NCBI GenBank assembly: GCA_017380635.1
Contig: JAFODP010000002.1
Span: forward strand, 62,001 to 126,000
Length of the DNA: 64,000 nt
From: Bacteroidales bacterium
GTDB lineage: Bacteria; Bacteroidota; Bacteroidia; Bacteroidales; UBA1402
Direction: 5' to 3'
Both the position numbers and the translations under genes were made by a program. Below are positions 28,376 through 50,727 of the stretch, piece by piece (the stretch's first letter is position 1; each line of letters starts with the position of its first letter). The notes under the pieces are model-generated. The model was not told the DNA's origin and ran no database searches. It worked only from the letters and a program-made list of their open reading frames with translations.

Positions 28376-29841
28376 AAAAATATATCAATCATATTGCCCT
28401 CTTTTTCTTGCTGGGTGCACTTACTGTGAACGCCCAGCAGAAAACAGAGTGGGAATTATGGCATTCCGACACGCTGGCCAAGCGCGACTTGCAGCTGCAG
28501 CGTCCTACCAGCGACACGAAGTTCGCCAAGCCTTTGGTGGAGGTGTTGAAGTATATCGAAGAGCAGTTTTCTGTGAAGTTGCGCTATTCCAAAAACGACG
28601 TGAACGGCGTGATGCTGAAATATGCGGAATATCGTTATCGTCCTTGGAGCGTGGAAGAAACTTTGGACAACGTACTCAAACCGCTCGATTTGAAATTTGT
28701 CAAGCAAAAAGAAGCTGTGTACGAAATCAAGCCTTTTGAATATGCGCGTCGTTTGCCGGAAGATGGTGAGGATATTCTGAATTATTTGCAAACTGTTTAT
28801 GCCGACAAGGCTTCTTGGGAGGCTCGTCGCGCTGTTTTGCAGAAGGAATTACGTGAAAATGCCGGACTGAACGGCTTGCCGGCGCAGCCGGCAAGCAAGC
28901 CCATCTTCAGCAAAAAGCGTATCTATGGCGATTATTATGTGCAGAATTTCGCCTTGGAAATCTTGCCGGGCGTTTATTGCACGGGCAGCATGTATCATCC
29001 GCTGAAATATAAAAAGGCATCTTGTCCTATCGTGTTGAATCCCAATGGACATTTTGGCAAAGGACGTTATCGTTACGATCATCAGGTGCGTTGTGCTATG
29101 CAGGCCAAAATGGGTTGTATCGCAGTTAGTTACGATCTTTTCTCTTGGGATGAACAATTGTTGCAATTCGAACCGCGTGCACATCGTACGGCTATGGCAC
29201 ATACTATTCAGAGTTTGAACGCCATTCGTCTCTTGGATTATCTTTGTTCGCTGCGTGAAGCCGATACCACGCGTGTGGGTATTACCGGTGGCAGCGGAGG
29301 CGGCAGTCAGACCATGTTCATTACCGCCATCGACGATCGCATTACGCTCAGTATTCCGGTGGTGATGACATCTTCGTATTTTGTGGGGGGGTGTCCTTGC
29401 GAAAGCGGTAATCCTATTCACTTGAGTGCCAATGGCACCAACAATGCTGAAATTGCAGCCATGTGCGCGCCTCGTCCTATGTTGATTGTTTCCGATGGTA
29501 AAGACTGGACCAAAGATGTGCCTTGGCTGGAGTTCCCTTTCATTCAAAGAACCTATGCTTTTTATGGCGCGAACGATCAGGTGGAAAATGCGCATTTCCC
29601 CAAGGAAGGTCACGATTATGGCCCATCCAAGCGTCAGGCGGCTTATGCTTTTATGGCTAAACATTGGCAGCTGAAATGTGCTCATCTGAAAACTGCAGAA
29701 GGTCTTTTCGACGAATCTTCTTGCGTGGAAGAGGATGCTAAGTTGCTGAAAGTTTGGGGCGAGAATGGTGAAGATCTGCCCGAAAATGCCTTGAAAGGCA
29801 TCGAGAACCTATACAGATTGTTTCATACTTACGGACAATAA
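28372..29841 (+). CDS. Exported alpha/beta-hydrolase esterase with an N-terminal STN-like domain
   Basis: A 489-residue protein with a signal peptide (ALFFLLGALTVNA, then QQKTE). Residues about 50-120 read as an STN (secretin/TonB N-terminal short) domain: KPLVEVLKYIEEQFSVKL ... SVEETLDNVLKPLDL. The rest is an alpha/beta hydrolase with nucleophile elbow GGSGG (candidate S308), SDGKDW as possible acid region and GHDYG as possible His. An RG-II-associated pectin methylesterase of B. thetaiotaomicron is also an alpha/beta hydrolase, so deesterification of GalA is a fair guess; an acetyl esterase is the alternative. It overlaps the GH28 gene by 4 bp. Confidence 0.75.
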   Translation: MKKYINHIALFFLLGALTVNAQQKTEWELWHSDTLAKRDLQLQRPTSDTKFAKPLVEVLKYIEEQFSVKLRYSKNDVNGVMLKYAEYRYRPWSVEETLDNVLKPLDLKFVKQKEAVYEIKPFEYARRLPEDGEDILNYLQTVYADKASWEARRAVLQKELRENAGLNGLPAQPASKPIFSKKRIYGDYYVQNFALEILPGVYCTGSMYHPLKYKKASCPIVLNPNGHFGKGRYRYDHQVRCAMQAKMGCIAVSYDLFSWDEQLLQFEPRAHRTAMAHTIQSLNAIRLLDYLCSLREADTTRVGITGGSGGGSQTMFITAIDDRITLSIPVVMTSSYFVGGCPCESGNPIHLSANGTNNAEIAAMCAPRPMLIVSDGKDWTKDVPWLEFPFIQRTYAFYGANDQVENAHFPKEGHDYGPSKRQAAYAFMAKHWQLKCAHLKTAEGLFDESSCVEEDAKLLKVWGENGEDLPENALKGIENLYRLFHTYGQ

Positions 29842-29853
29842 ATACTAACTTAA

Positions 29854-31899
29854 ATGAAAAAGATTTTATTAGGAGCGCTTGCGTCGCTCATTGCCCTGAC
29901 GGCTTTTTCGGCAGAGAGAGCCAAGCCATGGGATCACGGAAAATTGCAAGTGAGTGAAAATGGTCGCTACTTGGTACACGAAGATGGTGAGCCTTTCTTC
30001 TGGTTGGGAGAAACGGCCTGGTTGTTGACCTCGCGTCTGTTGCGCGAAGAAGTGGATTTCTATCTGAGAGATCGTGATAAAAAAGGATATAACGTTATTC
30101 AAGTATCCATTTTCCATAGTTATCCTCAGTATAATGTGTACGGAGAATGTGCAACGCCTTTTGGTTACGATTTCAAAAAAATAGATCGTCCGGGTTATTA
30201 TGGTTATTGGAATCACGTGGATTATGTGATTGATGCCGCAGCCAAGCGTGGTATGTATGTGGCCATCGTGTGCACCTGGGGTTCTGAAACCGTGAAGAAC
30301 GGTCATATGAATGTGGAAGAAGCTAAAAAGTATGCCGAGTTTTTGGCCAAACGTTATGCCGACCGACCCAATATTATCTGGATGATTGGTGGCGACGTTA
30401 ATCCCGAAGCTAATATGGATGTTTGGCATGCCATGGCTGAAACCATCAAGAAATACGACAAGAATCACCTGATGACTTATCATCCCGTGGGCAGAACTTC
30501 TTCGGCTAATTGGTTCCACGATGCACAGTGGCTCGATTTCCATATGTTCCAGTCGGGACATCGTCGTTATGGACAAAATGGCGGACAAATTGAAGGTTAT
30601 CCCATTGAACAGGATACCGAAGAAGACAACTGGCGTTATGTGGAAAAGGCTTATGCTTTGACGCCTGCCAAGCCGGTTATTGATGGCGAACCCAGTTACG
30701 AAGGCATTCCTCATGGTTTGCACAGTGGTGATGAACCTTATTGGACCGCTCCTGAAATTCGTCGATATGCTTATTGGTCGGTGTTTGCCGGTGCTTTCGG
30801 TCATACTTATGGTGACAATGCGGTGATGCAGTTTTATGTGCCCAGCATTATTGGTTCTTTTGCTCCTAAGTTGCCTTGGTACGAAGCTATACAAGAACCC
30901 GGTGCTGCCCAAATGCAACATTTGAAAGCTTTGATGACGCGTTTCCCCTTCACCCAAGGTCGTCCCGATCAGAGCTTGATTCTGAACGAAGTAGGCGAAA
31001 AGTACGATCGTTTGGTGGCTACTCGCGGCGAAGATTATGCTTTGGTGTATACCTATACCAATCGTGCCATCAGCATCGACTTGGATAAAATTGCCGGAAG
31101 AAATAAGCAGGTATTTTGGTTCATTCCTGAAACGGGTGAATATAAATATGTAGGCAGAAAGCGTGGCCGTCAGAGTTTTATGCCCGAAGGTGGTTATGGT
31201 GCCGGTAAAGATAAAGTCTTGGTGGTATTCGATGCCGACAAGAAGTATGTAGAAATTTCCGCCGAAGACCAAGCCCGCATCCAGGCAGAAAACAATGCTC
31301 GTTCCGATGCGCAGTTGGACAAGAAAGCTGCCGAATGGACCGCTTCGCTCAATTTGAACAATCCTGAAAAAGAAGCCCGCGTGGCTGCTATCATCGCTAC
31401 GCATCAGAAGGCTATCCGCGATTGGCATAATGCACACGTAAACGATATTCCTAAAGGCGCTATCGATCCGGCCACCGGCAAGCCTTTGAATGATGTTTAT
31501 CGCCAGATGATTGCCATTTCTTCTATTCCTGCATCTGTTACGCAAAATCTGATTGATGGTTTGAGCGCCGAATTGACGCCCGAACAAGTGGAACAAGTGC
31601 TTGATAAACACACTGTTGGTAAAGTTGCATTTACTTTGCAGGGTTACAAGGATATGTTCCTCGATGAATTTACGCCCGAAGACGAAAAAGTGGTGTTGGC
31701 CAATCTGAAAGAAGCTCGTCTGAAAGCGATGGATTACAAGAATATGAATCTGATCAACCAGGTTTTTGAAATCTATAAGACCAAGAACGAACAATATTTT
31801 ACCAATTCCGGTCGTGATTGGAAAACTTATTACAAAGCTTGGGCTGAAAGAAGAAAAGCAGAAAAAGCCGCGAAAGAAGCTGCCAACAAAAAACAATAA
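29854..31899 (+). CDS. GH140-type apiosidase (DUF4038) fused to DUF3826, exported
   Basis: A 681-residue protein with a signal peptide (LGALASLIALTAFSA, then ERAK). Residues about 25-470 match GH140/DUF4038: FFWLGETAWLL, MIGGDVNPEAN with candidate catalytic D181, and VIDGEPSYEG with candidate E279, plus a C-terminal beta-sandwich. GH140 cleaves the apiose-GalA bond that holds RG-II side chains A and B to the backbone. Residues about 480-681 are a DUF3826 domain related to the free-standing protein at 10577-11233. It is 12 bp after the esterase and 3 bp before the next gene. The GH140 call is strong by motif; the domain fusion is directly visible. Confidence 0.85.
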   Translation: MKKILLGALASLIALTAFSAERAKPWDHGKLQVSENGRYLVHEDGEPFFWLGETAWLLTSRLLREEVDFYLRDRDKKGYNVIQVSIFHSYPQYNVYGECATPFGYDFKKIDRPGYYGYWNHVDYVIDAAAKRGMYVAIVCTWGSETVKNGHMNVEEAKKYAEFLAKRYADRPNIIWMIGGDVNPEANMDVWHAMAETIKKYDKNHLMTYHPVGRTSSANWFHDAQWLDFHMFQSGHRRYGQNGGQIEGYPIEQDTEEDNWRYVEKAYALTPAKPVIDGEPSYEGIPHGLHSGDEPYWTAPEIRRYAYWSVFAGAFGHTYGDNAVMQFYVPSIIGSFAPKLPWYEAIQEPGAAQMQHLKALMTRFPFTQGRPDQSLILNEVGEKYDRLVATRGEDYALVYTYTNRAISIDLDKIAGRNKQVFWFIPETGEYKYVGRKRGRQSFMPEGGYGAGKDKVLVVFDADKKYVEISAEDQARIQAENNARSDAQLDKKAAEWTASLNLNNPEKEARVAAIIATHQKAIRDWHNAHVNDIPKGAIDPATGKPLNDVYRQMIAISSIPASVTQNLIDGLSAELTPEQVEQVLDKHTVGKVAFTLQGYKDMFLDEFTPEDEKVVLANLKEARLKAMDYKNMNLINQVFEIYKTKNEQYFTNSGRDWKTYYKAWAERRKAEKAAKEAANKKQ

Positions 31900-31902
31900 G
31901 AT

Positions 31903-33891
31903 ATGGAAAAAAAGAATTGTATGAAAAGATGCTCATGTTGTTGTCTCGTTATCGGCTTGTTCTTTTTGGCGCTGGCCGTTGTGATGTTTTTCATCAACAA
32001 CAATGAGTACAATTGGAAAAAAGGTGTTGTAGAAAGTCAGTTTTTGTACGAAAAGGCTGATTTTGCCGAATGTCATTCTGCCTCTTTGGCCGAAACACCC
32101 GAAGGTTTGATTGCTACCTATTTCGGTGGAACCAAGGAACGTTTTCCCGATGTAAGTATTTATGTGTCGCGCAAACCCAATGGTAGCGATGTTTGGCAAG
32201 CTCCTGAAAAAGTGGCCGAATGTATCATTGGCGAAGATCCCGGTCATTGGCCCAACGCTGGTGACGTGAAGCGTTATCCTTGTTGGAATCCTGTGCTTTA
32301 TCAGATTCCCGGTGGTGATTTGTTGCTGTTCTACAAGGTCGGTCCTCATCCCAGTACATGGAAAGGTCGCTTGATTCGTTCGTCGGATAATGGTCATACT
32401 TGGTCTAAGCCCGATACTTTGCCCGACGGTATTATCGGTCCGGTGAAGAATAAACCCGAAATGATCAATGGTGAACTTTTCTGTCCTTCAAGTCAGGAAG
32501 GTAATGGCTGGCGTTTGTTCTTGGATATCACCCCCGATTATGGCAAAACTTGGCGTCAAGTGGGTCCTATCAACGAAAGAGCTCCTTGGTTGGCTATCCA
32601 GCCCAGTATTCTCAAGCATAAAAACGGCGATTTGCAGATGGTGTTCCGCACTCGTAACCGTCGTGTAGGTACTACTTGGTCGCACGATGGCGGTGAAACC
32701 TGGACCAAACTTGATAGTCTGGAATTGCCCCAAAATAACTCAGGTACCGATGCGGTTACTTTGCAGGACGGTCGTCATTTGTTGGTGTACAATCATGTCT
32801 TGCCCGATGGTGAATTGGCCAAGGGTGCCCGTACGCCTCTGAATGTGGCTTTGTCGAAAGATGGTATCAACTGGTATGCTTCTTTGGTGTTGGAAGATTC
32901 TCCCATCAGTCAGTATTCTTATCCGGCCGTTATTCAAACCGCTGATGGTTATGTGCATTTCTTGTACACCTGGCGTCGTGAACGCATGAAATATGTGAAG
33001 GTGGATCCCAAGAAAATGCAGATGGTAAAAATTAAGAATCTCTGCTGGCCCGGTCATGATACGCCGCTGGCTGTGGAAGGTGCCGGCGATACGCGTTTCC
33101 CCATTGCTGTTTGCGACTGGATGATTTTGAAACGTCAGAAAGAATCGGCTATTCCTTTGGCTCGTATTATCGGTTGCAACGGTATCGAAGTGGATATGAA
33201 TTCTTTGAGCAATCATCCTACTTTCCAAAGTCGTTTCAAAGATAATCCCGAAGCCTTGATGTCGTACAAGCGTTTGGCTGCCCAAAGTGGTGTGAAGATT
33301 GCTTCTGTGGCTATGTCTGGTTTCTATGCACAATCTTTCGCTACGCGTGAAAGCTATATCCAGCCTGTGGCCGACTGTATCGAAGTAATGAAAGGTCTCG
33401 GTGCGAAAGTTGCCTTCTTGCCTTTGGGTGTCAACAGCGATTTGGCTGCTCATCCCGAATTGTATCCTGCTGTGGTTTCTCGCCTGAGAGAAGTGGCAAA
33501 AATGGCCGAAGAAGCCGGTGTGGTGATCGGTATCGAAACCAATTTGGATGCCAAGAACGAAGTGGCTTTGCTGAAAGAAATTGCTTCTCCTGCCATCAAG
33601 ATTTACTACAATTTTGCCAATGCTTGGAAGTATAACCGCGATATTCATCAGGAATTGCGCATTTTGGGTGCTGAAAATATTTGTCAGATTCACTGTACCA
33701 ATACCGATGGACAATGGTTGCAGAACGACCCGCAGGTTGATATGCCCGCCATCAAGAAAACTTTGGAAGAAATCGGTTATCGTGGCTATCTGGTGATGGA
33801 ACGTTCTCGCGACGCCTCTATGGTTCGCGACGTAAAGGCCAACTATACAGCCAACTGTTCTTATCTGAAGTCTGTTTTCCAACCTGAATAA
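31903..33891 (+). CDS. Sialidase-like propeller fused to a sugar-phosphate-isomerase/epimerase TIM barrel
   Basis: A 662-residue protein with one N-terminal membrane anchor (about residues 14-31). Residues about 45-375 form a sialidase/BNR propeller with Asp boxes SSDNGHTW (160-167), SHDGGETW (260-267) and SKDGINW. From about 399 the sequence changes to a xylose-isomerase-like TIM barrel starting IAVCDWMILKRQ, with GIETNLDAKNEV, YNFANAW, IHCTNTDG and LVMERSRD carrying typical metal-ligand positions. The joint near 385-399 is in frame without interruption. The pairing is unusual. The propeller could release a keto-deoxy acid such as Kdo; the barrel could isomerise or epimerise the product in the periplasm. 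The domains are clear, the function is not. Confidence 0.75.
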   Translation: MEKKNCMKRCSCCCLVIGLFFLALAVVMFFINNNEYNWKKGVVESQFLYEKADFAECHSASLAETPEGLIATYFGGTKERFPDVSIYVSRKPNGSDVWQAPEKVAECIIGEDPGHWPNAGDVKRYPCWNPVLYQIPGGDLLLFYKVGPHPSTWKGRLIRSSDNGHTWSKPDTLPDGIIGPVKNKPEMINGELFCPSSQEGNGWRLFLDITPDYGKTWRQVGPINERAPWLAIQPSILKHKNGDLQMVFRTRNRRVGTTWSHDGGETWTKLDSLELPQNNSGTDAVTLQDGRHLLVYNHVLPDGELAKGARTPLNVALSKDGINWYASLVLEDSPISQYSYPAVIQTADGYVHFLYTWRRERMKYVKVDPKKMQMVKIKNLCWPGHDTPLAVEGAGDTRFPIAVCDWMILKRQKESAIPLARIIGCNGIEVDMNSLSNHPTFQSRFKDNPEALMSYKRLAAQSGVKIASVAMSGFYAQSFATRESYIQPVADCIEVMKGLGAKVAFLPLGVNSDLAAHPELYPAVVSRLREVAKMAEEAGVVIGIETNLDAKNEVALLKEIASPAIKIYYNFANAWKYNRDIHQELRILGAENICQIHCTNTDGQWLQNDPQVDMPAIKKTLEEIGYRGYLVMERSRDASMVRDVKANYTANCSYLKSVFQPE

Positions 33892-33904
33892 TAAACAAGC
33901 TTGT

Positions 33905-33947
33905 AATCTGTGTCAATATATCCATGTTGGCACAGATTATATTTTTT
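33905..33947 (+). terminator. Intrinsic terminator between the fusion gene and the GH141-like gene
   Basis: Arms 33905-33916 and 33927-33938 pair over 12 bp (one G-U) around a 10-nt loop, then a T run. It ends only about 10 bp before the next ATG at 33958. It shares the GTGTCA...TGGCAC core with two other terminators in the window. Confidence 0.85.
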
Positions 33948-33957
33948 AGAGATAGCT

Positions 33958-35796
33958 ATGAAAAGAATCATCATCATCGCTCTGTCGGCCGTGTTTTCTC
34001 TGAATCTGTGGGCTCAGACGGTGCTCAGTGTCAAAGATAATGAGATGGATGTGCATCATGCGCTCCGTACGGTTCGCGAATGGCGTCGTTTGGATGCCGT
34101 CGGTAAATCGACAGGCGTGGATTTGAGCAAGGGCGTTGTCATCGAATTGCCCGAAGGTCAGTTTTTCTTGGACGAGCCTTTATTTCTTCGTCCCGAAGAT
34201 GCCGGAACGGCCGAAAGCCCGACCATTATCCGTGGTGCAGCCAACGGAAAAACCATTTTGAGCGGCGGTTGTGCATTGCCCGCCAAGGCTTGGAAAAAGG
34301 TGTCGAAAGTGTCCGGATTGCCCGCCAAGGCGCAGTCGAAAGTTTATGTTTGTCCGCAGCCTAAAGTGGCCGGTCGTTATTTGAGTTTTCGTCAGTTGTG
34401 GGTGAATGGTCAAAAGGCTGTGCGCGCCCGCGATGTGAACGATTTCGACCAAATGAAACGCATGTTGGCTTGGGATAAACATCAACAAGTGCTTACCATT
34501 CCAACGCCCGCAGTGAAGCATTTCCAAACGCTAGACGGTATGGAATTGGTTTTGCATCAGATGTGGGCCATTTCCAACTTGCGCGTGGCTTCGCTCACGC
34601 GCAACGGCGATTCCACCCAAGTGCGTTTTCATCAGCCGGAAAGTCGCGTGCAGGCTGAGCATCCTTGGCCTTGTCCCATGACAACCAAAGGCTTGGAATC
34701 TCCTTATTATCTGTGCAATGCGATCGAATTTCTGGATATGCCCGGCGAATGGTATCTGGATGAAGACAAACATTTGCTCTATTATTGGCCGCGTCAAGGC
34801 GAGGTCTTGTCTAAGGCAGAGGTGATAGTTCCCAGCCTGGAAACCTTGGTCGATGTACAAGGCACCAAGGAACGTCCTGTGTCGCATGTCCGTTTCGAAA
34901 ATATCACTTTCAGTCACACTTCTTGGATGCGCCCTTCTTTGCAGGGCCATGTGCCTTTGCAGGCCGGTATGTATCTCTTGGATGCCTATAAATTGCGTCC
35001 TCACGGTGTGCCCGGCAATCCTAATCGTGGTTTGGAAAATCAGGCATGGTTGGGTCGTCCGGCTTCGGCTGTTCGTTTGCAATCGGTGCATCATACGGCT
35101 TTCGAAAATTGTCGTTTTCAGCATATGGCTTCTTGCGCCATCGATTATGTGGAAAATACCGCCTACGATAGCATCAAGTATTGCGATTTTGAAGATATTG
35201 GTGGAAATGCCATTCAAGCCGGCCGTTTCTCCGATATCGGTACGGAAAGCCATTTGCCTTACGATACCAAGGATATCCGCGAGCTCTGTACCTATCTTTA
35301 TATAGGTGATAATGTCTTGCACGATATTACCAATGAAGATTGGGGTTGCGTGGCCATTTGCGCCGGTTATGTGCGCAATGCTACCATTGAATACAACGAA
35401 ATCAGCGAAGTGTCCTATTCGGGCATCAGCTTGGGTTGGGGTTGGCAGAAAGCGCTCAACTGCATGCGTGAAAATGTGGTGAAGGGCAATTATATCCATC
35501 ATTACGCCAAGCATATGTACGATGTGGCCGGTATTTATACCTTGTCGGCGCAGCCAAAAACGCTGATTACCGAAAATGTGGTAGATAGTATTTATAGTCC
35601 TTGGTATGTGCACGATCCGCATCATTGGTTTTATCTGTATACCGACGAGGGTTCTTCTTTTATGATGGTGAAAGACAACTGGTGTCCTGCGGAAAAATTC
35701 TTGCAAAATGCCAATGGCCCCGGTAATACCTGGCAGAACAATGGTCCGATGGTGAGCGAAGAAATCAAAGCGCGCGCCGGACGAAGATCACGATAA
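33958..35796 (+). CDS. GH141-like right-handed beta-helix glycosidase, exported
   Basis: A 612-residue exported protein (signal peptide IIIIALSAVFSLNLWA, then QTVLS). It has a right-handed beta-helix pattern with short repeats of N-x-I-x-Y and a C-terminal run HHYAKHMYDVAGIYTLSAQ ... WFYLYTDEGSS typical of GH141-like proteins. GH141 includes an RG-II alpha-L-fucosidase and xylanases. In this locus fucose removal from side chain A is a reasonable guess. ATG 33958 starts the signal peptide. A terminator precedes it by about 10 bp, so its expression probably depends on read-through. It is the last gene of the glycan island. Confidence 0.68.
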   Translation: MKRIIIIALSAVFSLNLWAQTVLSVKDNEMDVHHALRTVREWRRLDAVGKSTGVDLSKGVVIELPEGQFFLDEPLFLRPEDAGTAESPTIIRGAANGKTILSGGCALPAKAWKKVSKVSGLPAKAQSKVYVCPQPKVAGRYLSFRQLWVNGQKAVRARDVNDFDQMKRMLAWDKHQQVLTIPTPAVKHFQTLDGMELVLHQMWAISNLRVASLTRNGDSTQVRFHQPESRVQAEHPWPCPMTTKGLESPYYLCNAIEFLDMPGEWYLDEDKHLLYYWPRQGEVLSKAEVIVPSLETLVDVQGTKERPVSHVRFENITFSHTSWMRPSLQGHVPLQAGMYLLDAYKLRPHGVPGNPNRGLENQAWLGRPASAVRLQSVHHTAFENCRFQHMASCAIDYVENTAYDSIKYCDFEDIGGNAIQAGRFSDIGTESHLPYDTKDIRELCTYLYIGDNVLHDITNEDWGCVAICAGYVRNATIEYNEISEVSYSGISLGWGWQKALNCMRENVVKGNYIHHYAKHMYDVAGIYTLSAQPKTLITENVVDSIYSPWYVHDPHHWFYLYTDEGSSFMMVKDNWCPAEKFLQNANGPGNTWQNNGPMVSEEIKARAGRRSR

Positions 35797-35845
35797 AGCC
35801 ATAGAACCTGTACCTAAAGAATTTGGGTACAGGTTCTATGGCTTT
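35795..35845 (+). terminator. Long perfect hairpin closing the glycan island
   Basis: Arms 35795-35814 and 35826-35845 are 20-bp perfect complements around an 11-nt loop. The stop codon TAA of the GH141-like gene overlaps the 5' arm. The T tract is short (TTTCT), so it could also protect the transcript end. Confidence 0.8.
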
Positions 35846-35900
35846 CTAATGCATTGATTTTTAGCAAATTGAGAAAAATTTAAAAATAATTGCAAAAATG

Positions 35901-35931
35901 TTTGTAGATTGATATAAATGTAGTACTTTTG
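35901..35931 (+). promoter_or_regulatory. Consensus promoter for a non-coding transcript or leader
   Basis: TTTG (35901-35904), a 19-bp spacer and TACTTTTG (35924-35931) make a full Bacteroidetes promoter. GCAGCC follows directly, as at the rpsU and tRNA-tuf promoters. The expected start is at about 35936-35938. The nearest start codon is about 250 bp downstream. Confidence 0.85.
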
Positions 35932-35936
35932 CAGCC

Positions 35937-36123
35937 GATTTCATAAGGGTTCTAATCCAAGCGAGGATAGTTGTTAAAAAGTTAGTAGTTAAGTTGTTAG
36001 GTAAAGATTGTAAAGTGTTAGTTCTTGCTTGTCTTTATGAAATCTAATTGAAATACATTTTTCTCAATATATTTCCAAACGTGAAGATAGTGGCAAATTT
36101 TTGCCTTATCTTTACGCTTTTTT
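35937..36123 (+). ncRNA. Candidate structured small RNA or attenuator leader, about 187 nt
   Basis: The 389 bp between the GH141-like gene and the deaminase hold no supported ORF. A transcript from the promoter at 35901 would begin with an arm (35937-35948) that pairs over 12 positions with 36033-36044. A second arm, 35958-35967, pairs with 36022-36031 over 10 positions (some G-U). They enclose a 54-nt loop (35968-36021) with no C at all and three GTTAG copies. A terminator hairpin follows (36080-36116) with TTTTTT. This fits a discrete small RNA, or a leader regulating the deaminase gene. I cannot assign it to 6S, SRP, tmRNA or a known riboswitch class by eye. Confidence 0.6.
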
Positions 36124-36184
36124 ATTTTATGGATATTCCTTCTGAGGGAATCCAATCATATATCGTTTTTAAAAATCAGTGATT

Positions 36185-37453
36185 ATGTCTAAGATACTTT
36201 TGCACAATATCTGGCATCAGGATGGCGCTTATGATATACAGATAGAAAATAATCGTTTCGTTGCCATTACGAAAACCAAAGCCTTGTCCGAATGGAACTT
36301 GGCTGATGATATCCAGGTGGTGGATGCCAGCGGAAAAGCTATTTTGCCGGCATTTTACAATGGTCATACGCATGCAGCGATGAGTCTTTTGCGCGCGTAC
36401 GCCGATGATATGCCTTTGGCAACCTGGCTCAATGAGCATATTTGGCCGGCCGAAGCCAAGATGACCGCCGAAGATATGTATCATGGCGTGAAGCTTTCCA
36501 TTCTGGAAATGATAAAAAGCGGAACGGTTTTCTTCAACGATATGTATTTTGCCTGGGAGCGTTGTGCGGAGGCTGTCGAAGAGATGGGTTTGAGAGCGCT
36601 GGTGGCCGATTCTTTTATCGATAGGGGAGATGAGGCGTATGCCAATGCTTTTTTGGCGCGTTTCAAAGCCCAGCAATCCTTGAATACCGATAAGCTGCGT
36701 TTTGCCATTGCGCCTCATGCTATGTATACGGTGGGTGGCGATATGTTGCGCCGTTGTGCCGAGGCTGCCTGCGAAGCAGATCAATTCTTGCATATTCATT
36801 TGGCTGAAACTCAGCAGGAAATGGACGATAGTCTGGCGAAATACGGCATGACTCCCACGGAATATTTGCATTCATTGGGCGTTTTAGGTCCGAAAACCAT
36901 CGTGGCGCATGCTATCTATCTGACGGATAATGATATGGATATTTTGAAGGAAACGCAGACGGTCTTGGTGCACAATCCATGTTCCAATATGAAGCTGGCT
37001 TCGGGAATATTTCCGTCTAAAGCGGTGAGCGACAAAGGTTTGAGAGTGATTTTGGGTACCGATGGATCTTCATCCAACAACAATTTGGATATGCGCGAAG
37101 AAATGAAATTTGCTGCTTTGATGGCCAAGTTGCGTTATGGTGCCGAGGCTTTGCCTGCCACGCAAGTCTTGCAATGGGCTACGGCCGATGCTGCTGCGGC
37201 TTTCGGAATAGATGCCGGTGTTATCGCCGAAGGAAAATTGGCCGATGCGGTGATTGTCAATCTGAAGCACGAGCGTATGACGCCTTCGTTCAATCTTACT
37301 TCCAACTGGGTATATTCTGCCGACAGTTCGGTGATTGATAGTGTTTTGTGTGATGGTCGTTTTCTGATGCGCCATGGACGTGTGCCCAACGAAGACCAAA
37401 TTCGTGAAAATGCCGAGCGTTGCGCTTTCGATTTGTTGAAACGTGTGAAATAA
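36185..37453 (+). CDS. mtaD: 5-methylthioadenosine / S-adenosylhomocysteine deaminase-family amidohydrolase
   Basis: A 422-residue cytoplasmic metal-dependent amidohydrolase. Landmarks are NGHTHAAMSLLRAYADD (metal H61 and H63), FLHIHLAETQQE, IVAHAIYL and GTDGSSSNNNLDM, which carries the metal Asp. The family deaminates SAH, MTA or related adenosines in S-adenosylmethionine recycling. ATG 36185 is preferred over an in-frame GTG at 36179. A small hairpin (36131-36153) and the structured element at 35937-36123 lie upstream, and I see no consensus promoter between that terminator and the gene, so leader control is possible. Guanine or another amine deaminase is the main alternative. Confidence 0.85.
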   Translation: MSKILLHNIWHQDGAYDIQIENNRFVAITKTKALSEWNLADDIQVVDASGKAILPAFYNGHTHAAMSLLRAYADDMPLATWLNEHIWPAEAKMTAEDMYHGVKLSILEMIKSGTVFFNDMYFAWERCAEAVEEMGLRALVADSFIDRGDEAYANAFLARFKAQQSLNTDKLRFAIAPHAMYTVGGDMLRRCAEAACEADQFLHIHLAETQQEMDDSLAKYGMTPTEYLHSLGVLGPKTIVAHAIYLTDNDMDILKETQTVLVHNPCSNMKLASGIFPSKAVSDKGLRVILGTDGSSSNNNLDMREEMKFAALMAKLRYGAEALPATQVLQWATADAAAAFGIDAGVIAEGKLADAVIVNLKHERMTPSFNLTSNWVYSADSSVIDSVLCDGRFLMRHGRVPNEDQIRENAERCAFDLLKRVK

Positions 37454-37463
37454 GTTACTTTTG
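37432..37463 (+). promoter_or_regulatory. Promoter of the aminotransferase gene
   Basis: TTTG (37432-37435), a 20-bp spacer and TACTTTTG (37456-37463). The -33 box lies inside the end of the deaminase gene, and the aminotransferase starts 30 bp after the -7 box. Confidence 0.75.
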
Positions 37464-37493
37464 TCGTTTGCTAACTGAAAAATACAGATAATT

Positions 37494-38693
37494 ATGCCAA
37501 TGCCTTCACATCGTGGCTGGATAATGCCCGAATCGCCTATTCGTAAATTGGTTCCTTTGGCTCGTCAAGCAGAAGCCAGAGGCTTGAAAATATATCATTT
37601 GAACATCGGTCAGCCGGATATCAAAACCCCGCAAGTGGGCTTGGATGCGCTGAAACATATCGACCGCAGCATTCTGGAATATACGCAGAGCGAAGGCTTG
37701 CTGAGTTTGCGTCAGAAGTTGGCGGCCTATTACAATCGTTTCGGAATTGAGGTAGATCCTTCGGAAATTATTGTCACCACCGGTGGTTCGGAAGCGGTGT
37801 TGTTTGCTTTTATGGCTTGTCTCGATCCTGGCGATGAGATTATTGTGCCGGAACCTGCTTACGCCAACTATACGGCTTTTGCTATTTCCGGAGGTGCGAT
37901 TATTCGTCCTTTGTTGTGTTCTGTCGACAATGATTTTGCCTTGCCTTCTTTCGATGAATTTGAAAAGATGATCACCAAGCGTACGCGTGCCATTCTGCTG
38001 TGTAATCCCAACAATCCCACGGGACATATCTATACGGCCGAAGAAATGGAGCACATTCGTCAGTTGGTGAAAAAATACGACCTGTATCTGTTTTCGGACG
38101 AAGTGTATCGCGAGTTCTGTTATTCCGATACGCCGCATATTTCGGCCATGCAATTGGAAGGTATCGAAGATAATGTGATACTTATCGACTCTGTGTCAAA
38201 ACGTTATAGCGAATGCGGTATCCGTATCGGGGCTTTGATTACCAAGAACAAACAAGTGCGCAAGGATGTGATGAAGTTTTGTCAGGCGCGTCTTTGTCCG
38301 CCGCTTATCGGGCAGATTGTGGCCGAAGCCTCGATGGATGTTTCCGAAGAATATATGCAGTCGGTTTACGATGAATATTTGGAACGTCGCAATTATATGA
38401 TCAAGGCCATCAACGAGATCCCCGGTTGTTATTCGCCCATGCCAATGGGGGCTTTTTATACGGTGGCTCGTTTGCCCATTGATGATGCCGATAAGTTTTG
38501 CGCCTGGTTGCTGGAATCGTTTGAATATCAAGGAAAAACTTTGATGATTGCGCCCGCGTCCGGTTTCTATTCTGCCAATAGTATGGGTCGTAACGAAGTG
38601 CGTATGGCTTATGTGATGAATCTGGAAGATTTGTCTGTGGCGATGGATCTTTTGCGTCGTGCTTTGGAAATCTATCCCGGTAGAACTATGTAA
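37494..38693 (+). CDS. Class I PLP-dependent aminotransferase (AspC-like)
   Basis: A 399-residue fold-type I aminotransferase. NPNNPTG is at 171-177, the PLP-binding Asp is D202 (FSDEVY), the Schiff-base Lys is K236 (DSVSKRYSECG) and the carboxylate-binding Arg is R244 (GIRIG) or the C-terminal R in NEVRMAY. The length is normal. It is probably an aspartate or broad-range amino-acid aminotransferase in the cytoplasm. It has its own promoter and is followed after 17 bp by the permease gene, without an obvious functional link. Confidence 0.88.
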   Translation: MPMPSHRGWIMPESPIRKLVPLARQAEARGLKIYHLNIGQPDIKTPQVGLDALKHIDRSILEYTQSEGLLSLRQKLAAYYNRFGIEVDPSEIIVTTGGSEAVLFAFMACLDPGDEIIVPEPAYANYTAFAISGGAIIRPLLCSVDNDFALPSFDEFEKMITKRTRAILLCNPNNPTGHIYTAEEMEHIRQLVKKYDLYLFSDEVYREFCYSDTPHISAMQLEGIEDNVILIDSVSKRYSECGIRIGALITKNKQVRKDVMKFCQARLCPPLIGQIVAEASMDVSEEYMQSVYDEYLERRNYMIKAINEIPGCYSPMPMGAFYTVARLPIDDADKFCAWLLESFEYQGKTLMIAPASGFYSANSMGRNEVRMAYVMNLEDLSVAMDLLRRALEIYPGRTM

Positions 38694-38710
38694 TTGTCTC
38701 TGTATCAGGG

Positions 38711-39961
38711 ATGGCATCTTTCGAATATCATATTGCTCGCCGTTTGTTCTTTGAGCCGCAACAAGACAAACAAGTGTCGCGTCCGGCAGTGCGTATCGCG
38801 CTGATTGGTATGGCGGTCGGTTTGGCGGTGATGATTGCTTCCGTGTGTATCGTCATCGGGTTCAAACATCAGGTGGAAGCCAATGTGATGGGCTTGAGTT
38901 CTCATATTCAGGTGACGAACTATCATTCCAATTATTCTTACGAAATGGTGCCCATCGAGCGCCCTGATACTTTGCCATCGCTCTTGCAAGATATTCCCAA
39001 TATTCGTCATATTCAGCGATATACCACCAAAACGGGTATGCTGAAAACCCAAGACGAAGTGCAGGCGATGATATTCAAAGGCGTGGCCGACGATTTCGAC
39101 TGGAGTTTTTTGCAAGACAAGATAGTGGCCGGAGAAATCCCTGATTATCAAGCTGGAACACCTTCTAATGAGGTGCTGATTTCGCAATATACGGCCAATC
39201 TGCTCCGTTTGTCGCTCGGCGATGATTTTTATGCTTATTTTACCAGAGATGAACAGATTCTGGCGCGAAAATGGAAAGTGGCTGCCGTTTTCGATACGCA
39301 TTTTTCGGAGTTCGACCGACATTTTCTTTTGCTCGACAATCGTCAGTTGGCGCGATTGAACGGTTGGCAGTCTCATCAGGCGGGCGGTTTGGAAATCTTT
39401 GTGGATGATATTCGCGATATTGTCGATACCGATGTGGCGGTGTACAATCGTCTGTTTGCTTTCGGTTCGGAACAGCAGTTGGCTTATTACACGCAGTCGG
39501 TCTACGATTTGAATCCGCAGATTTTCGGTTGGCTCGATTTGCTGGATATGAATGTTTGGCTCATTTTGGCCTTGATGATTTTTGTGTCGGGTTTCAATAT
39601 GATTTCCAGTCTGTTGATTCTTATTTTGGAACGCACCAATCTGATAGGCATGCTTAAAGCAATGGGAGCCAACAATCTGTCTTTGCGCAAGGTCTTTCTT
39701 TGGCTTTCTACTATGCTGACGCTGCGCGGAATGTTTTGGGGAAATGTTATCGGTTTGGGGCTGTGCGCTTTGCAATATTTCTTCCATCTGATACCGCTCG
39801 ATGCGGCAGTGTATTACGTGTCCAGTGTGCCTGTGGAATTCAATTTCTTTCTCATTATTCTGCTCAATCTTGGGGTAGCTTTCGCTTCTTTCCTGATGAT
39901 GTTGCTGCCCTCTGGGCTGGTGAGTCGTATCGCGCCGGTGAAGGCGATTCGCTTCGATTGA
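38711..39961 (+). CDS. LolC/LolE-like ABC transporter permease
   Basis: A 416-residue FtsX/MacB-type permease with one N-terminal membrane helix (about 28-48), a large periplasmic domain (about 50-265) and three C-terminal helices. The start FEYHIARRLFF and the C-terminal LGMLKAMGAN-type block (LIGMLKAMGANNLSLRKVFL) are typical of the lipoprotein-releasing LolCE family. The ATPase partner LolD is not in the window, so it must be encoded elsewhere. It would move lipoproteins out of the inner membrane. It follows the aminotransferase by 17 bp. Confidence 0.87.
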   Translation: MASFEYHIARRLFFEPQQDKQVSRPAVRIALIGMAVGLAVMIASVCIVIGFKHQVEANVMGLSSHIQVTNYHSNYSYEMVPIERPDTLPSLLQDIPNIRHIQRYTTKTGMLKTQDEVQAMIFKGVADDFDWSFLQDKIVAGEIPDYQAGTPSNEVLISQYTANLLRLSLGDDFYAYFTRDEQILARKWKVAAVFDTHFSEFDRHFLLLDNRQLARLNGWQSHQAGGLEIFVDDIRDIVDTDVAVYNRLFAFGSEQQLAYYTQSVYDLNPQIFGWLDLLDMNVWLILALMIFVSGFNMISSLLILILERTNLIGMLKAMGANNLSLRKVFLWLSTMLTLRGMFWGNVIGLGLCALQYFFHLIPLDAAVYYVSSVPVEFNFFLIILLNLGVAFASFLMMLLPSGLVSRIAPVKAIRFD

Positions 39962-40010
39962 TTTTTTTAGAATTTTTAGCAGAAAACTTCGCTTTTTTAG
40001 TGGCTTTTCT

Positions 40011-40018
40011 TATCTTTG
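40011..40018 (+). promoter_or_regulatory. -7 box for the GH51-rhaB-rhaA operon
   Basis: TATCTTTG is an exact -7 element 57 bp before the GH51 start. The -33 position is T-rich (about 39992-39998) but not a clean TTTG. Confidence 0.55.
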
Positions 40019-40075
40019 TCTCTCGTGTCCGTCAAGGATGCGGGCAGAAGTTTCATTGCGTAAAATCAAACGGTT

Positions 40076-41629
40076 ATGAAAAAGCTTTGGATTTGTGTTT
40101 TGGCAACAATGTCTTTGGCTTTGTCGCTTTCGGCAGCCGAAAAAGCTACGTTGGTAGTGAAGGGAAATCTGGCAGAATACGAAATTTCCCGTCATATTTA
40201 TGGTCATTTCGCGGAACATCTTGGTCATTGTATTTATGGTGGCATTTGGGTGGGTCCCGAGTCGTCCATTCCCAATACCGATGGCTATCGCAATGATATT
40301 GTGGCTGCTTTGAAAGAAATTCAGATTCCAAATCTCCGTTGGCCGGGTGGTTGTTTTGCCGATGAATATCATTGGCGCGATGGTATCGGTCCGCGCGAAA
40401 GTCGTCCGAAAATGGTAAATACGCATTGGGGCGGCGTGGTGGAAGACAATTCCTTTGGTACGCACGAATTTCTCAATTTCTGTGAATTGCTTGGAACCGA
40501 ACCTTACATCTGCGGCAATTTGGGTAGCGGCACCGTGGAAGAAATGTCTAAATGGGTGGAATACATCACTTTCGATGGCGAATCGCCTATGGCTAATCTG
40601 CGTAAGGAAAATGGTCGTGAAAAACCTTGGTCGGTGAAATTCTGGGGCGTAGGTAACGAAAACTGGGGCTGCGGCGGCAATATGACGGCTCAGTTCTACA
40701 GCGATCAATACCGTCGATATGCTACCTATTGTCGAAATTATGGCGACAATCGTCTGATGAAAATTGCCGGCGGACCTAATGGCGGCGATGTCAATTGGAC
40801 GGAAACTTTGATGAAGAACATTGGTACGGGTCGCATGTGGGGATTGTCGATGCATTATTACACGGTGCCCAAGGGTTGGGGTCCCGGCGGTAAAGGTTCT
40901 GCCACCGATTTCGACGAAGAAGAATATATGATTACCATGCAGAAAAGTCTGCAAATGGACGAATTGATTCGTCGTCATACCGAAGTGATGGATATGTACG
41001 ATCCCAAGAAAAAAGTGGCGCTTTGCGTGGACGAATGGGGCGCTTGGTACGATGTGGAGCCTGGTACGAATCCTGGTTTCTTGTATCAGCAGAATACCTT
41101 GCGCGATGCTTTGCTTTGTGCTTCTATCCTGAATATTTTCCATCATCATTGCGATCGCGTGCGCATGGCCAATATTGCCCAGATGGTGAATGTGTTGCAA
41201 GCGATTATCCTGACCAAAGACGATCAGATGGTGCTGACGCCCACTTATCATGTGTACAATATGTACAAAGTGCATCAGGATGCCAAGATGATTCCGGTGG
41301 AATTGCTGGTGCCTCAATATACTTGCGGTACGCGTTCTGTTCCCGCAGTGAATGCAAGTGCTTCTATCGACAAGGATGGTGTGACACATATTTCTCTGGT
41401 GAATATCGATCCTCATAACGAGGTGGAAATTTCTTGTCGTCTCGATGACGTGAAGGCGGATCAAGCCTCTGCCAACATCCTGACGGCCGATGCTTTGAAT
41501 GTCTGCAATACTTTTGAAGCTCCCCAAAACATCGTGCTGAAGCCTTTCAAGCAGGTTAAACTGAAAAAAGACGGCACCTTGATCCTGACTATGCCTGCCA
41601 AATCTGTGATTACTGTAACATTGAAATAA
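40076..41629 (+). CDS. GH51 alpha-L-arabinofuranosidase, exported
   Basis: A 517-residue GH51 enzyme with catalytic acid/base E195 (GVGNENWG) and nucleophile E320 (CVDEWGAW). Early family motifs include [19 protein letters not shown] and [15 protein letters not shown]. Unlike many cytoplasmic GH51 enzymes it has a signal peptide ([17 protein letters not shown], then AEKA), so it probably acts in the periplasm on arabino-oligosaccharides from pectin side chains. It is 8 bp upstream of rhaB and so shares a transcript with L-rhamnose catabolism, a sensible combination for rhamnogalacturonan use. Confidence 0.93.
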
Positions 41630-41637
41630 TAGCTATA

Positions 41638-43122
41638 ATGGAAAAACTTCATCATTTTTTAGCCTTCGACTTGGGTGCGACCAGTGGTCGTTCAATTTTG
41701 GCTACCGTAGGTGGCGATAAGTTGGAAATGAAGGAACTTACCCGTTTTCCCAATGTGCTTCTGCCACTTGATGGAAAATTTTATTGGAATATTTACGGTT
41801 TGTACGAAGCCTTGCGCGCCGGTTTGTTTGCCGCTGCCAAAGAAGGCGTTAAAATAGATTCTATCGGTATTGATACTTGGGGAGTCGATTTTGTCTATGT
41901 GGGCAAAGACGGCTCTTTCTTGGGTTGTCCCAGAGCTTACCGCGATCCTTATACCGAAGGTGCTCCCGAAAAATTCTTCCAAATTGTTCCCCGTAAGGAA
42001 GTATACGATGCTACCGGTATTCAGATTATGAATTTCAATAGCTTGTATCAACTTTTTACGGCTAAGAATGAAGGAAGTTCTGCCTTGGAAGCCGCCGATA
42101 AAATCCTTTTCATGCCGGACGCTTTGTCTTATATGCTTACCGGCAAACAAGTTTGCGAATACACCATTGCTTCTACTTCTCAGATGTTGAATCCCAAGAC
42201 CAAGCAGTTTGAACAGAAATTGCTGGATGCTGCCGGTGTTAAATCGTCTCTCTTGCCCGACATTATTGTGCCCGGTACGGTTATCGGTACGCTCACCGAT
42301 GCTTTGGCCGAAGAAACCGGTTTGGGTAAAGTGCCCGTGGTGGCAGTGGCCGGTCACGACACCGCTTCGGCCGTCGCTGCCGTTCCGGCCGAAGGCGAAG
42401 GTTTCGCCTATCTGAGTTCGGGAACCTGGTCGTTGATGGGTATCGAAGTGAAAGATCCTATTATCACCGAAGATTCTTTCAGCATGAACTTTACCAACGA
42501 AGGTGGGGTAGAAGGCACCACGCGTTTCTTGAAGAATATCACCGGTATGTGGTTGTTGGAACAATGCCGCAAGGAATGGAAGAAAAAACAGAATGTGTCT
42601 TATTCATATCCCGTTATCGAACAATTGGGAACCTCGGCCGATGCCTTCCGCTCTTTGGTAGATCCCGACGATCCTTGCTTTGCCAATCCGCCCAGCATGA
42701 CCCAGGCTATCGAAGATTATTGCAAGAAAACCGGTCAGCCGGTGCCTATGAATCATGCTCAATTCATTCGTTGTATTTACGACAGTTTGGCCTTGAAGTA
42801 CAAATGCGTATTGAATAATCTGCAGAATGTGGCTCCTTTCAAGATTGAAAAATTGCATATCATCGGTGGTGGTGCTGTGAATAAATTGATGAGTCAACTT
42901 ACGGCCAATGCGGTGGGTATTCCTGTGGTTTGCGGTCCGGGTGAAGCTACTGCCATCGGTAATGTGATGATGCAGGCCAAGGCTGTCGGCGTAGTGAATT
43001 CATTGCCCGAAATGCGTCAGTTGATTGCCAAGTCTATCCAAACCAATATCTATCTTCCCGAAGATCAGACGGCTTGGGAATTGGCTTATCGTCGTTATTG
43101 TCAAATCATTGAACAAAAATAA
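41638..43122 (+). CDS. rhaB: Rhamnulokinase
   Basis: A 494-residue FGGY-family kinase that phosphorylates L-rhamnulose at O1. RhaB features are AFDLGATSGRS at the N-terminus, SIGIDTWGVDFV, the PDALSYMLTGK block, GHDTASAVAAVP, LSSGTWSLMGIE and the C-terminal IIGGGAVNKLMSQLTA ADP-binding region. Length is normal. The gene is between the GH51 gene (8 bp) and rhaA (19 bp). Cytoplasmic; feeds rhamnulose 1-phosphate to an aldolase encoded outside the window. Confidence 0.95.
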   Translation: MEKLHHFLAFDLGATSGRSILATVGGDKLEMKELTRFPNVLLPLDGKFYWNIYGLYEALRAGLFAAAKEGVKIDSIGIDTWGVDFVYVGKDGSFLGCPRAYRDPYTEGAPEKFFQIVPRKEVYDATGIQIMNFNSLYQLFTAKNEGSSALEAADKILFMPDALSYMLTGKQVCEYTIASTSQMLNPKTKQFEQKLLDAAGVKSSLLPDIIVPGTVIGTLTDALAEETGLGKVPVVAVAGHDTASAVAAVPAEGEGFAYLSSGTWSLMGIEVKDPIITEDSFSMNFTNEGGVEGTTRFLKNITGMWLLEQCRKEWKKKQNVSYSYPVIEQLGTSADAFRSLVDPDDPCFANPPSMTQAIEDYCKKTGQPVPMNHAQFIRCIYDSLALKYKCVLNNLQNVAPFKIEKLHIIGGGAVNKLMSQLTANAVGIPVVCGPGEATAIGNVMMQAKAVGVVNSLPEMRQLIAKSIQTNIYLPEDQTAWELAYRRYCQIIEQK

Positions 43123-43141
43123 AAACTTAACATTAACTTTT

Positions 43142-44395
43142 ATGGTAAACGAATCTTTGGTTCTGAAAGCATACGAAGTTGCTAAGGAACGTTACGCTGC
43201 TTATGGCGTTGATACCGACAAGGTATTGGAACAATTGCAGAATTTTCATCTCTCTATGCATTGTTGGCAAGCCGACGATGTGAATGGTTTCGAAGTACAA
43301 GCCGGCGATTTGTCAGGTGGTATTCAGTCTACCGGTAATTATCCCGGCAAGGCTCGCAATATCGATGAATTGCGTGCTGATATTCTGAAAGCCAAGTCTT
43401 TGATTCCCGGTAACCATCGTTTGAATCTGCACGAAATCTATGGCGATTTCCAAGGTCAGGTGGTAGATCGTGATGAAGTGGAACTCAAACATTTCCAAAG
43501 CTGGATCGATTGGGCTAAGGAAAACGATACAAAATTAGACTTCAACTCATCTTCTTTTGCTCACCCCAAGAGCGGTAGTTTATCTTTGTCTAATCCCGAT
43601 AAGGCTATCCGCGATTTCTGGATTGAACATACCAAGCGTTGTCGTGCTATTTCAGAAGAAATTGGTAAGGCTCAGAACGATCCTTGTATCATGAACCTTT
43701 GGGTACACGATGGTTGCAAAGACAATTCTGTAAATCATTATATTTATCGTGAACACTTGAAGAACTCTTTGGACGAAATTTTCGCTACCAAGTACGATAA
43801 CATGAAAGACTGTATCGAAGGTAAAGTTTTCGGTATTGGTTTGGAAAGTTTCACCGTAGGTTCTCACGATTTCTATACCGCTTATGCTGCCAAGAACAAC
43901 AAGATGCTCACCATCGACACCGGTCACTATCATCCCACCGAAAGTCCTGCCGACAAGGTTTCTGCTGTTTTGCAATTCGTTCCCGAATTGATGTTGCACG
44001 TAAGCCGTCCTGTTCGTTGGGACTCCGACCACGTAACTTTGATGGACGATCCTACTTTGGAATTGTTCTACGAAATTGTACGTGCCGGCGCACTCGACCG
44101 CGTTCACTACGGTCTCGACTTCTTCGATGGCGCTATCAATCGTTTGGGTGCTTACGTTATCGGTAGCCGCGCTGCTCAGAAGTGTATGTTGCGTGCATTG
44201 CTCGAACCCGCTATCATCCGTCAGTACGAATTGGAAGGCAAGGGTTATCAAGTAATGGCATTGTTGGAAGAATGCAAGGCATTGCCTTGGGCTGCTGTTT
44301 ACGATATGTTCTGCTTGAAGAACAATGTTCCCGTAGCTGACGATTTCATCGCTTGCATCGATGCTTACGAAAAAGAAGTGACTTCCAAGAGATAA
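43142..44395 (+). CDS. rhaA: L-rhamnose isomerase
   Basis: A 417-residue metal-dependent TIM-barrel isomerase that converts L-rhamnose to L-rhamnulose. Family blocks are FHLSMHCWQADDVNGFE, NLHEIYGDFQG, WVHDGCKD, IDTGHYHPTE and LLHVSRPVRWDSDHV, the last two carrying metal ligands. ATG 43142 gives the normal N-terminus; sequence upstream in the same frame belongs to rhaB. It is the last gene of the GH51-rhaB-rhaA operon and is closed by the terminator at 44417. Neither rhaD nor a rhamnose transporter is in the window. Confidence 0.96.
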   Translation: MVNESLVLKAYEVAKERYAAYGVDTDKVLEQLQNFHLSMHCWQADDVNGFEVQAGDLSGGIQSTGNYPGKARNIDELRADILKAKSLIPGNHRLNLHEIYGDFQGQVVDRDEVELKHFQSWIDWAKENDTKLDFNSSSFAHPKSGSLSLSNPDKAIRDFWIEHTKRCRAISEEIGKAQNDPCIMNLWVHDGCKDNSVNHYIYREHLKNSLDEIFATKYDNMKDCIEGKVFGIGLESFTVGSHDFYTAYAAKNNKMLTIDTGHYHPTESPADKVSAVLQFVPELMLHVSRPVRWDSDHVTLMDDPTLELFYEIVRAGALDRVHYGLDFFDGAINRLGAYVIGSRAAQKCMLRALLEPAIIRQYELEGKGYQVMALLEECKALPWAAVYDMFCLKNNVPVADDFIACIDAYEKEVTSKR

Positions 44396-49645: not shown

Positions 49646-49757
49646 GATTCTGCCAGGCCTAAATTACTCGCGAAGAGTAAAATTCAATCTATTTGTTTAA
49701 CCCTGAATCTACAGGAGGTGTAGTTTATAAAAATTAAGGATTTTTATTCCTTATAAA

Positions 49758-49789
49758 TTTGTTTGAAAAAAATAGCTTTGTTATATTCG
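49758..49789 (+). promoter_or_regulatory. Promoter of the xerC-like gene
   Basis: TTTG (49758-49761), a 20-bp spacer and TATATTCG (49782-49789), a -7 box with one mismatch. The gene starts 26 bp later. Confidence 0.6.
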
Positions 49790-49815
49790 TTGCCGATAAT
49801 TAATCGGGAGGAAAT

Positions 49816-50727
49816 ATGGTGGAGCAATTTATACAGTATCTACGGTATGAGAGGAATTATTCTTCTCATACCGTTCTTGCTTATAGAAAAGATCTGGAAC
49901 AATTCTCCCTTTTTCTGACCGATGAATATGGTGTAGACGATCTTTTTCGTGCGGATGCCGATATGATACGTTTTTGGCTATTGCGTCTGATGGAAGAAGG
50001 CTTGAGCGCCCGCTCTGTCAATCGTAAATTGTCATCTTTGAAATCGTTCTGGCGCTATCTTTTGGCTAAAGGTTTGGCAAAGGAAAATCCTTGTCGCAAA
50101 TTATTATCTCCCAAGGTGCATAAATCTTTGCCTTCGTTTTTGAAAAAAGAAGAGATGGAAAGCTTGCTCGATGACGCTTGCGAAAACGAGGATATATCGG
50201 AATTTGTTGCGAAAAGAAATCGGCTGATGATTGAAATGTTGTTGCAGACGGGAATGAGACGCTCAGAGTTAATGGGTTTGGCTCTGTCGGACGTGGATAT
50301 GTCGTCATGTTTGCTTCGCGTAAAGGGGAAACGCGATAAGCAGCGTCTGATTCCTTTCGGCCCGATGTTACAGTCGATGATACAAGATTATCTGGATAGT
50401 CGCGCACAATGGCAGGCACAATGTGAAGATTTGTACGATTTTTCCGATTGTCTGTTTGTTCGCGAAAACGGAAAGCCTTTGTATCCGCAGCTGGTCTATC
50501 GTCTGGTGCACGATAAATTGTCACAATGCAGTAGTTTGGCAAAAAAGAGTCCGCATGTGCTTCGTCATAGTTTTGCCACCACCTTATTAAATAATGGTGC
50601 AGAGTTGAATGCGGTGAAGGAATTGTTGGGCCATGCCAATTTATCGGCGACGGAAGTGTATACCCATACCACTTTCGAAGAGTTAAAACAAGTGTATAAA
50701 CAAGCTCATCCCCGAGCAGATTATTGA
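49816..50727 (+). CDS. XerC/D-type tyrosine recombinase
   Basis: A 303-residue tyrosine recombinase with the complete catalytic set R148 (TGMRRSEL), K172, H247 and R250 (HVLRHSF), H273 (GHANL) and nucleophile Y282 (EVYTH). The SAM-like N-domain (about 1-90) and length match XerC/XerD, which resolve chromosome dimers at dif. The core position between rpsU and hpf argues for a housekeeping role, not an integrase. Whether it is XerC or XerD cannot be told here. Confidence 0.9.
   Translation: MVEQFIQYLRYERNYSSHTVLAYRKDLEQFSLFLTDEYGVDDLFRADADMIRFWLLRLMEEGLSARSVNRKLSSLKSFWRYLLAKGLAKENPCRKLLSPKVHKSLPSFLKKEEMESLLDDACENEDISEFVAKRNRLMIEMLLQTGMRRSELMGLALSDVDMSSCLLRVKGKRDKQRLIPFGPMLQSMIQDYLDSRAQWQAQCEDLYDFSDCLFVRENGKPLYPQLVYRLVHDKLSQCSSLAKKSPHVLRHSFATTLLNNGAELNAVKELLGHANLSATEVYTHTTFEELKQVYKQAHPRADY

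Follow-up and report, generated by a model that had tools for sequence, protein, structure and literature searches.

The window analysed here, a 64-kb (64,000-nucleotide) stretch of a 2.34-Mb Bacteroidales genome assembly (G000), contains a short noncoding interval between a GH141-type gene and a gene for an amidohydrolase or deaminase. This interval, singled out by an initial annotation as a candidate structured RNA, raises the question of whether it specifies a discrete small RNA and, if so, whether such an RNA would act by base-pairing in trans, by binding a protein or by controlling the gene directly behind it. It is surrounded by a pectin and rhamnose degradation region (26801–44395) whose genes encode a GH28 enzyme, an apiosidase-like protein (PF13204) with DUF3826, the GH141-type protein, an arabinofuranosidase, an FGGY kinase and rhaA.

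Promoter, terminator and fold of the RNA

The unit opens with a Bacteroidetes-type promoter on the forward strand (35901–35931), in which TTTG (35901–35904) is followed by a 19-nt spacer and by TACTTTTG (35924–35931). The arrangement TTTG-N19-TACTTTTG matches the Bacteroidetes form TTTG-N19-TAnnTTTG exactly, and the full consensus promoter claimed at the outset is therefore present. Across this genome, TAnnTTTG boxes are over-represented upstream of genes, with 179 in the sense orientation versus 87 antisense. In the sister species (G002) the -7 box is retained and the -33 box reads CTTG. A scan for promoters of the E. coli type does not list 35901–35931, as is expected for this phylum. The opposite boundary is an intrinsic terminator (36080–36123), which is composed of a stem-loop at 36080–36116 and the run CTTTTTT, again as described originally. 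The noncoding unit is thus flanked by a promoter and a terminator of its own. With its start placed from the promoter and its end from the terminator, the predicted transcript measures ∼187 nt (35937–36123, forward strand). The upstream GH141-type gene has a separate end: a near-perfect 20-bp terminator hairpin at 35798–35842.

The transcript is predicted to fold into a long stem made of two parts. The outer stem, P1, is 13 bp in length and joins 35937–35949 to 36032–36044; a variable, one-sided bulge of 8 nt (35950–35957) separates it from the 11-bp inner stem, P2, formed by 35958–35968 and 36021–36031. The pairings reported initially (35937–35948 with 36033–36044 and 35958–35967 with 36022–36031) are present as described. 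A linker (36045–36079) leads from the closing arm of P1 to the terminator. The whole RNA has a minimum free energy of -50.4 kcal/mol (z -5.22), a stability attained by none of 200 dinucleotide shuffles; the stem-loop on its own yields a z of -4.56, and the homologue in the sister species folds with a z of -4.33.

The stem encloses 54 nt (35968–36021) that are devoid of C and contain GTTAG three times, both features being read directly from the sequence. Together with flanking stem bases the C-free run extends to 61 nt (35963–36023) and is the longest run lacking either C or G on either strand of the window, the second longest being 52 nt. The loop of the sister species is also C-free but lacks the third GTTAG. 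The initial annotation viewed the loop as an antisense or protein-binding surface, which is plausible; the antisense half of this proposal has since gained moderate statistical support from the leader complementarity tests reported below. If the RNA acted through a protein, the single-stranded GUUAG/AGUUAG-rich loop would serve to dock or to titrate an RNA-binding protein, in keeping with a repeated motif and with a loop that has 40 invariant nt and resists folding. We regard this as rather improbable in view of the GTTAG copy missing in the sister species, of a search of the RNA's own genome in which no protein matched RRM_1 (PF00076), and of a loop that presents no known binding motif.

Conservation, distribution and known RNA families

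A BLAST search of 60 genomes retrieved a single full-length homologue, in the sister species, which is 87% identical (164/187). Identity is distributed unevenly along the RNA: the loop core is unchanged (39/39), with 40 consecutive identical positions at 35975–36014, and the terminator (43/44), outer stem (25/26) and linker (31/35) are close to invariant, whereas the bulge retains only 3 of its 8 positions. Twelve of the 13 outer pairs are identical and the remaining one changes from G-U to A-U. The two arms of both stems are supported by the fold and by this comparison. In the inner stem two pairs have changed on both sides with pairing preserved, and two of its outer pairs are broken in the sister species. 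The covariation analysis that had been suggested thus reveals compensation, at a level that is not significant with two sequences (121 of 500 shuffles reach it). Outside the RNA, identity drops to 24/61 between terminator and downstream gene and to 906/1269 across the deaminase coding sequence, with 54% at third codon positions. Within this pair of species, the RNA is accordingly more conserved than its surroundings. Since its identity exceeds that of the flanks, terminator and loop are nearly unchanged and the inner stem displays compensation, a selected, conserved noncoding RNA is very probably real, and promoter, terminator, fold and conservation all speak for the discrete structured RNA proposed initially. 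The structure might instead have arisen by chance in a non-transcribed AT-rich spacer, and C-free or G-free runs of 40–50 nt do occur elsewhere in the window; with a promoter, a terminator, fold z values of -5.2 and -4.3 and flanks that are much less conserved, however, this origin is extremely improbable.

The RNA is narrowly distributed within a Bacteroidales lineage. A covariance model recovers it in two of six genomes of the genus and two of 13 of the family; among 393 genomes of the order, drawn with stricter filters than those of the genus and family searches, it finds only the RNA's own genome and one match that is likely due to chance. The latter (E 0.002) was discarded, as by eye it has neither a comparable promoter nor long stems. 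Two weaker matches, in G005 and G001 (E 0.15 and 0.18), were likewise rejected as distant homologues: they fall at the leader of a gene that we take, from its protein sequence, to be sdhC-like, and antisense to the leader of another gene. Absence from congeners is uncertain because their assemblies are only 70–83% complete. No copies of the RNA were found in viral contigs, searched by exact 20-mers, or in phage records. The window is syntenic with the sister species except for a segment of ∼2.9 kb that in the latter directly precedes the RNA. This segment, located between the GH141-type gene and the RNA, bears a gene (L002, 1836–3233) whose protein, judged by eye, is pectate-lyase-like. Elsewhere in the window, a 344-bp spacer (49646–49989) contains runs of 45, 42 and 37 nt that are identical between the two genomes.

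The RNA belongs to no described family. At gathering thresholds, an Rfam scan finds four tRNAs and nothing else in the whole window. Below threshold, a permissive scan of the region, up to E 10, matched only unrelated families (microRNAs, snoRNAs, Listeria sRNAs and Lnt), mostly at the upstream gene's terminator. A match to a known family, which the initial annotation had named as grounds for abandoning the idea, was thus encountered in neither scan. Bacteroidales-1 (RF01693) is also a structured Bacteroidales RNA of similar length, but the candidate does not match its covariance model and the genome has its own copy elsewhere (G000:C48), as does the sister species, each scoring 130 bits. That the candidate is a diverged housekeeping RNA (6S, Bacteroidales-1 or similar) is very unlikely. 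Its length and closing stem recall 6S RNA, which is expected in every genome, and the 6S of these two species has not been located because model RF00013 finds none in either of them; this negative is a weak test, as a control Bacteroides genome was missed too. Against a housekeeping role, not even a weak Rfam match to 6S or Bacteroidales-1 occurs at the RNA, and it was not found in four of the six genus genomes (70–83% complete), whereas 6S would be expected in all.

The downstream deaminase gene

The gene that directly follows the RNA in both species encodes the amidohydrolase/deaminase (PF01979, Amidohydro_1; 36185–37453, forward strand). The best NCBIfam models for its product are nucleoside/atrazine-type deaminases and hydrolases, none of them above cut-off. 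The protein evolves faster than its neighbours, with 71% identity to the sister species as compared with a median of 87% over an initial set of 80 reciprocal best hits. The stretch from terminator to start codon contains no TAnnTTTG box in either genome, and no separate promoter for the gene can be recognised. An element inside the terminator, TATCTTTA, was considered as a promoter and dismissed, since genes are not preceded by an excess of TAnnTTTA, the closest variant that occurs there. Because of the missing box and the lack of enrichment of this variant, the deaminase probably depends on read-through of the terminator. In G001, G003 and G004 the deaminase gene closely follows another gene and no RNA is present; in G006 a promoter-like box immediately precedes it.

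Such reliance on read-through keeps alive the main rival to an independent small RNA, namely a cis-acting transcription attenuator, which owes its standing to the absence of a promoter box between terminator and deaminase. The RNA would then be the leader of a deaminase–aminotransferase operon: its terminator would stop most transcripts and some signal would permit read-through, perhaps by freeing 36029–36039 for pairing with the 5' arm of the terminator. The position of the RNA, directly before the deaminase in both species, fits this scheme, as does an alternative pairing of 36029–36039 with 36080–36090, which by inspection comprises 11 bp (duplex energy -9.3 kcal/mol), nine of which persist in the sister species. 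The occurrence of the deaminase in an operon devoid of the RNA in three congeners points in the same direction. The P1/P2 stem-loop, however, forms before the terminator and, at ∼-28.7 kcal/mol, greatly exceeds the alternative in stability, so that no mutually exclusive antiterminator of comparable stability was found. Rfam yields no match to a known aptamer or riboswitch family at the RNA, there is no conserved leader peptide (the open reading frames differ between the two species) and sequence conservation is lost between terminator and gene. With attenuators and riboswitch leaders, the SAM/SAH classes among them, the locus has in common a leader RNA that ends in a terminator and is followed by a gene for which no promoter can be recognised, but here both a family match and a convincing antiterminator are missing, and an unstructured C-free loop takes the place of the folded aptamer of riboswitch leaders. 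On balance we consider attenuation unlikely, though a serious contender; were it correct, the locus would represent an uncharacterised leader of a nucleoside-type deaminase operon. The more specific suggestion of the initial annotation, a response of the deaminase to SAH or MTA through this element, receives no support: the deaminase falls below all curated NCBIfam cut-offs, no SAM/SAH-type family is among the weak Rfam matches listed, and the deaminase of three relatives is not accompanied by the RNA.

Pairing of the loop with mRNA leaders

The reading that we tentatively favour assigns the RNA a main role in base-pairing in trans. It would be an independent small RNA with its own terminator, found in a narrow Bacteroidales lineage, and would use its long two-part stem to display a C-free, mostly unstructured loop. 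The loop would pair with 5' leaders that are poor in G and contain C, just ahead of start codons, and thereby block translation; partial read-through of the terminator would supply the mRNA of the downstream deaminase. Bacteroidetes have few Shine-Dalgarno sites and, in their place, G-poor leaders.

Complementarity was assessed over 853 kb of G000 and 1.14 Mb of G002, with gene starts taken from a simple purpose-written caller rather than a standard one. Leaders, taken as positions -40 to +6, were scored for complementarity to the invariant loop core, with shuffled cores as controls. Of 395 orthologs paired with start codons aligned, 29 were dropped (less than 50% identity, or the deaminase itself) and 366 kept. 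Nine pairs score at least 26 in both species; shuffled cores yield 2.6 ± 1.8 such pairs, and 4 of 500 shuffles reach as many. The top five average 30.8 against 26.4 ± 1.4 (1 of 500 as high), and the overall mean is also raised (20 of 500). When the genomes were treated singly, omitting genes without an ATG start, genes near segment ends and the deaminase, scores of at least 32 were reached in G000 by seven of 576 leaders (658 genes in total) versus 1.7 ± 1.5 shuffled, with none of 200 shuffles as high. The sister species on its own has no excess (three of 730 leaders, from 840 genes, versus 1.9 ± 1.5; 58 of 200 as high), and in the RNA-less G003 none of 253 leaders attains this score (0.2 shuffled). 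Mean complementarity is raised in all three genomes; part of it is therefore generic leader composition, as the shift occurs in G003 too. An initial ungapped test gave a mean that was not raised and a raised tail (shuffles as high: 15 of 300 in G000, 1 of 300 in G002). Plain duplex energies between the loop and 354 leaders do not exceed those of shuffles.

The most likely targets would include rhaA, the L-rhamnose isomerase gene of the surrounding pectin-degradation region. Its leader contains the best predicted pairing site (43120–43141, forward strand) for loop positions 35977–35999, ending at the start codon (43142). In both species pairing runs for ∼21 nt and stops at the start codon, though the letters of the leader differ. 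The scores, 36.3 and 33.0, surpass those of all 12 RNA-less relatives that were read (9.9–28.9), three RNA-less congeners coming nearest with 27–29; as rhaA was picked for its top rank, this comparison is partly circular and supportive only. Second in rank is the leader of the GH28 pectinase gene (26801), where the pairing segment is the same in both species and its conservation is therefore not independent evidence. The window is not significantly enriched in candidate targets (P about 0.1). A search of the six genus genomes for the complement of 23 nt of the loop, allowing up to three mismatches, disclosed no second site, and a 19-mer complement has no near-exact target in the 64-kb window.

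A precedent for this mode of action is provided by GibS and FopS of Bacteroides thetaiotaomicron, which are described as sRNAs with their own promoter and terminator whose conserved single-stranded seed binds metabolic mRNAs by base-pairing at their translation initiation region (PMC7366714, PMC11697453). The candidate resembles them in being a Bacteroidales RNA with its own promoter and terminator and in its proposed single-stranded seed directed against start regions of mRNAs. As depicted in these reports, the seed of GibS and FopS is an open 5' stretch, whereas that of the candidate would be held in a loop closed by the two-part stem. FopS is reported to work with the RRM protein RbpB (PMC11697453), a partner for which the candidate's genome offers no RRM_1 match. 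FopS is stated to be deposited in Rfam (PMC11697453); no match up to E 10 in the Rfam copy searched places the candidate in the GibS/FopS family or links the sequences. The candidate could nonetheless work like a Bacteroides-type seed sRNA with its seed presented in a stem-closed loop, an analogy we advance with some reserve.

A bolder version, which we consider speculative, envisages a lineage-specific global antisense RNA whose one loop would tune the translation of many mRNAs, those of the nearby pectin and rhamnose genes included. It is equally speculative that avoidance of C would keep such a loop from strong self-pairing and suit it to G-poor leaders. If loop and leaders do pair, the locus would illustrate how an sRNA can act in a phylum with few Shine-Dalgarno sites and in a genome without a detectable RRM_1 partner, and would add a regulatory RNA to pectin and rhamnose use in gut bacteria.

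Leaders that resemble the reverse complement of the loop also occur before the start codon of a secreted-protein gene in RNA-less congeners (L004 and L007, in G003:C2 and G001:C62). The copy in G003 extends over 36 nt with 89% identity (E 6e-6) and is not counted as evidence because its gene has no clear counterpart in G000 or G002. In G000 itself, a gene for a 131-aa protein on the minus strand (C49, 69949–70341) is preceded by the leader TTAACAACTTAAACACTAACGTT-ATG, a strong match to the loop complement in a single species.
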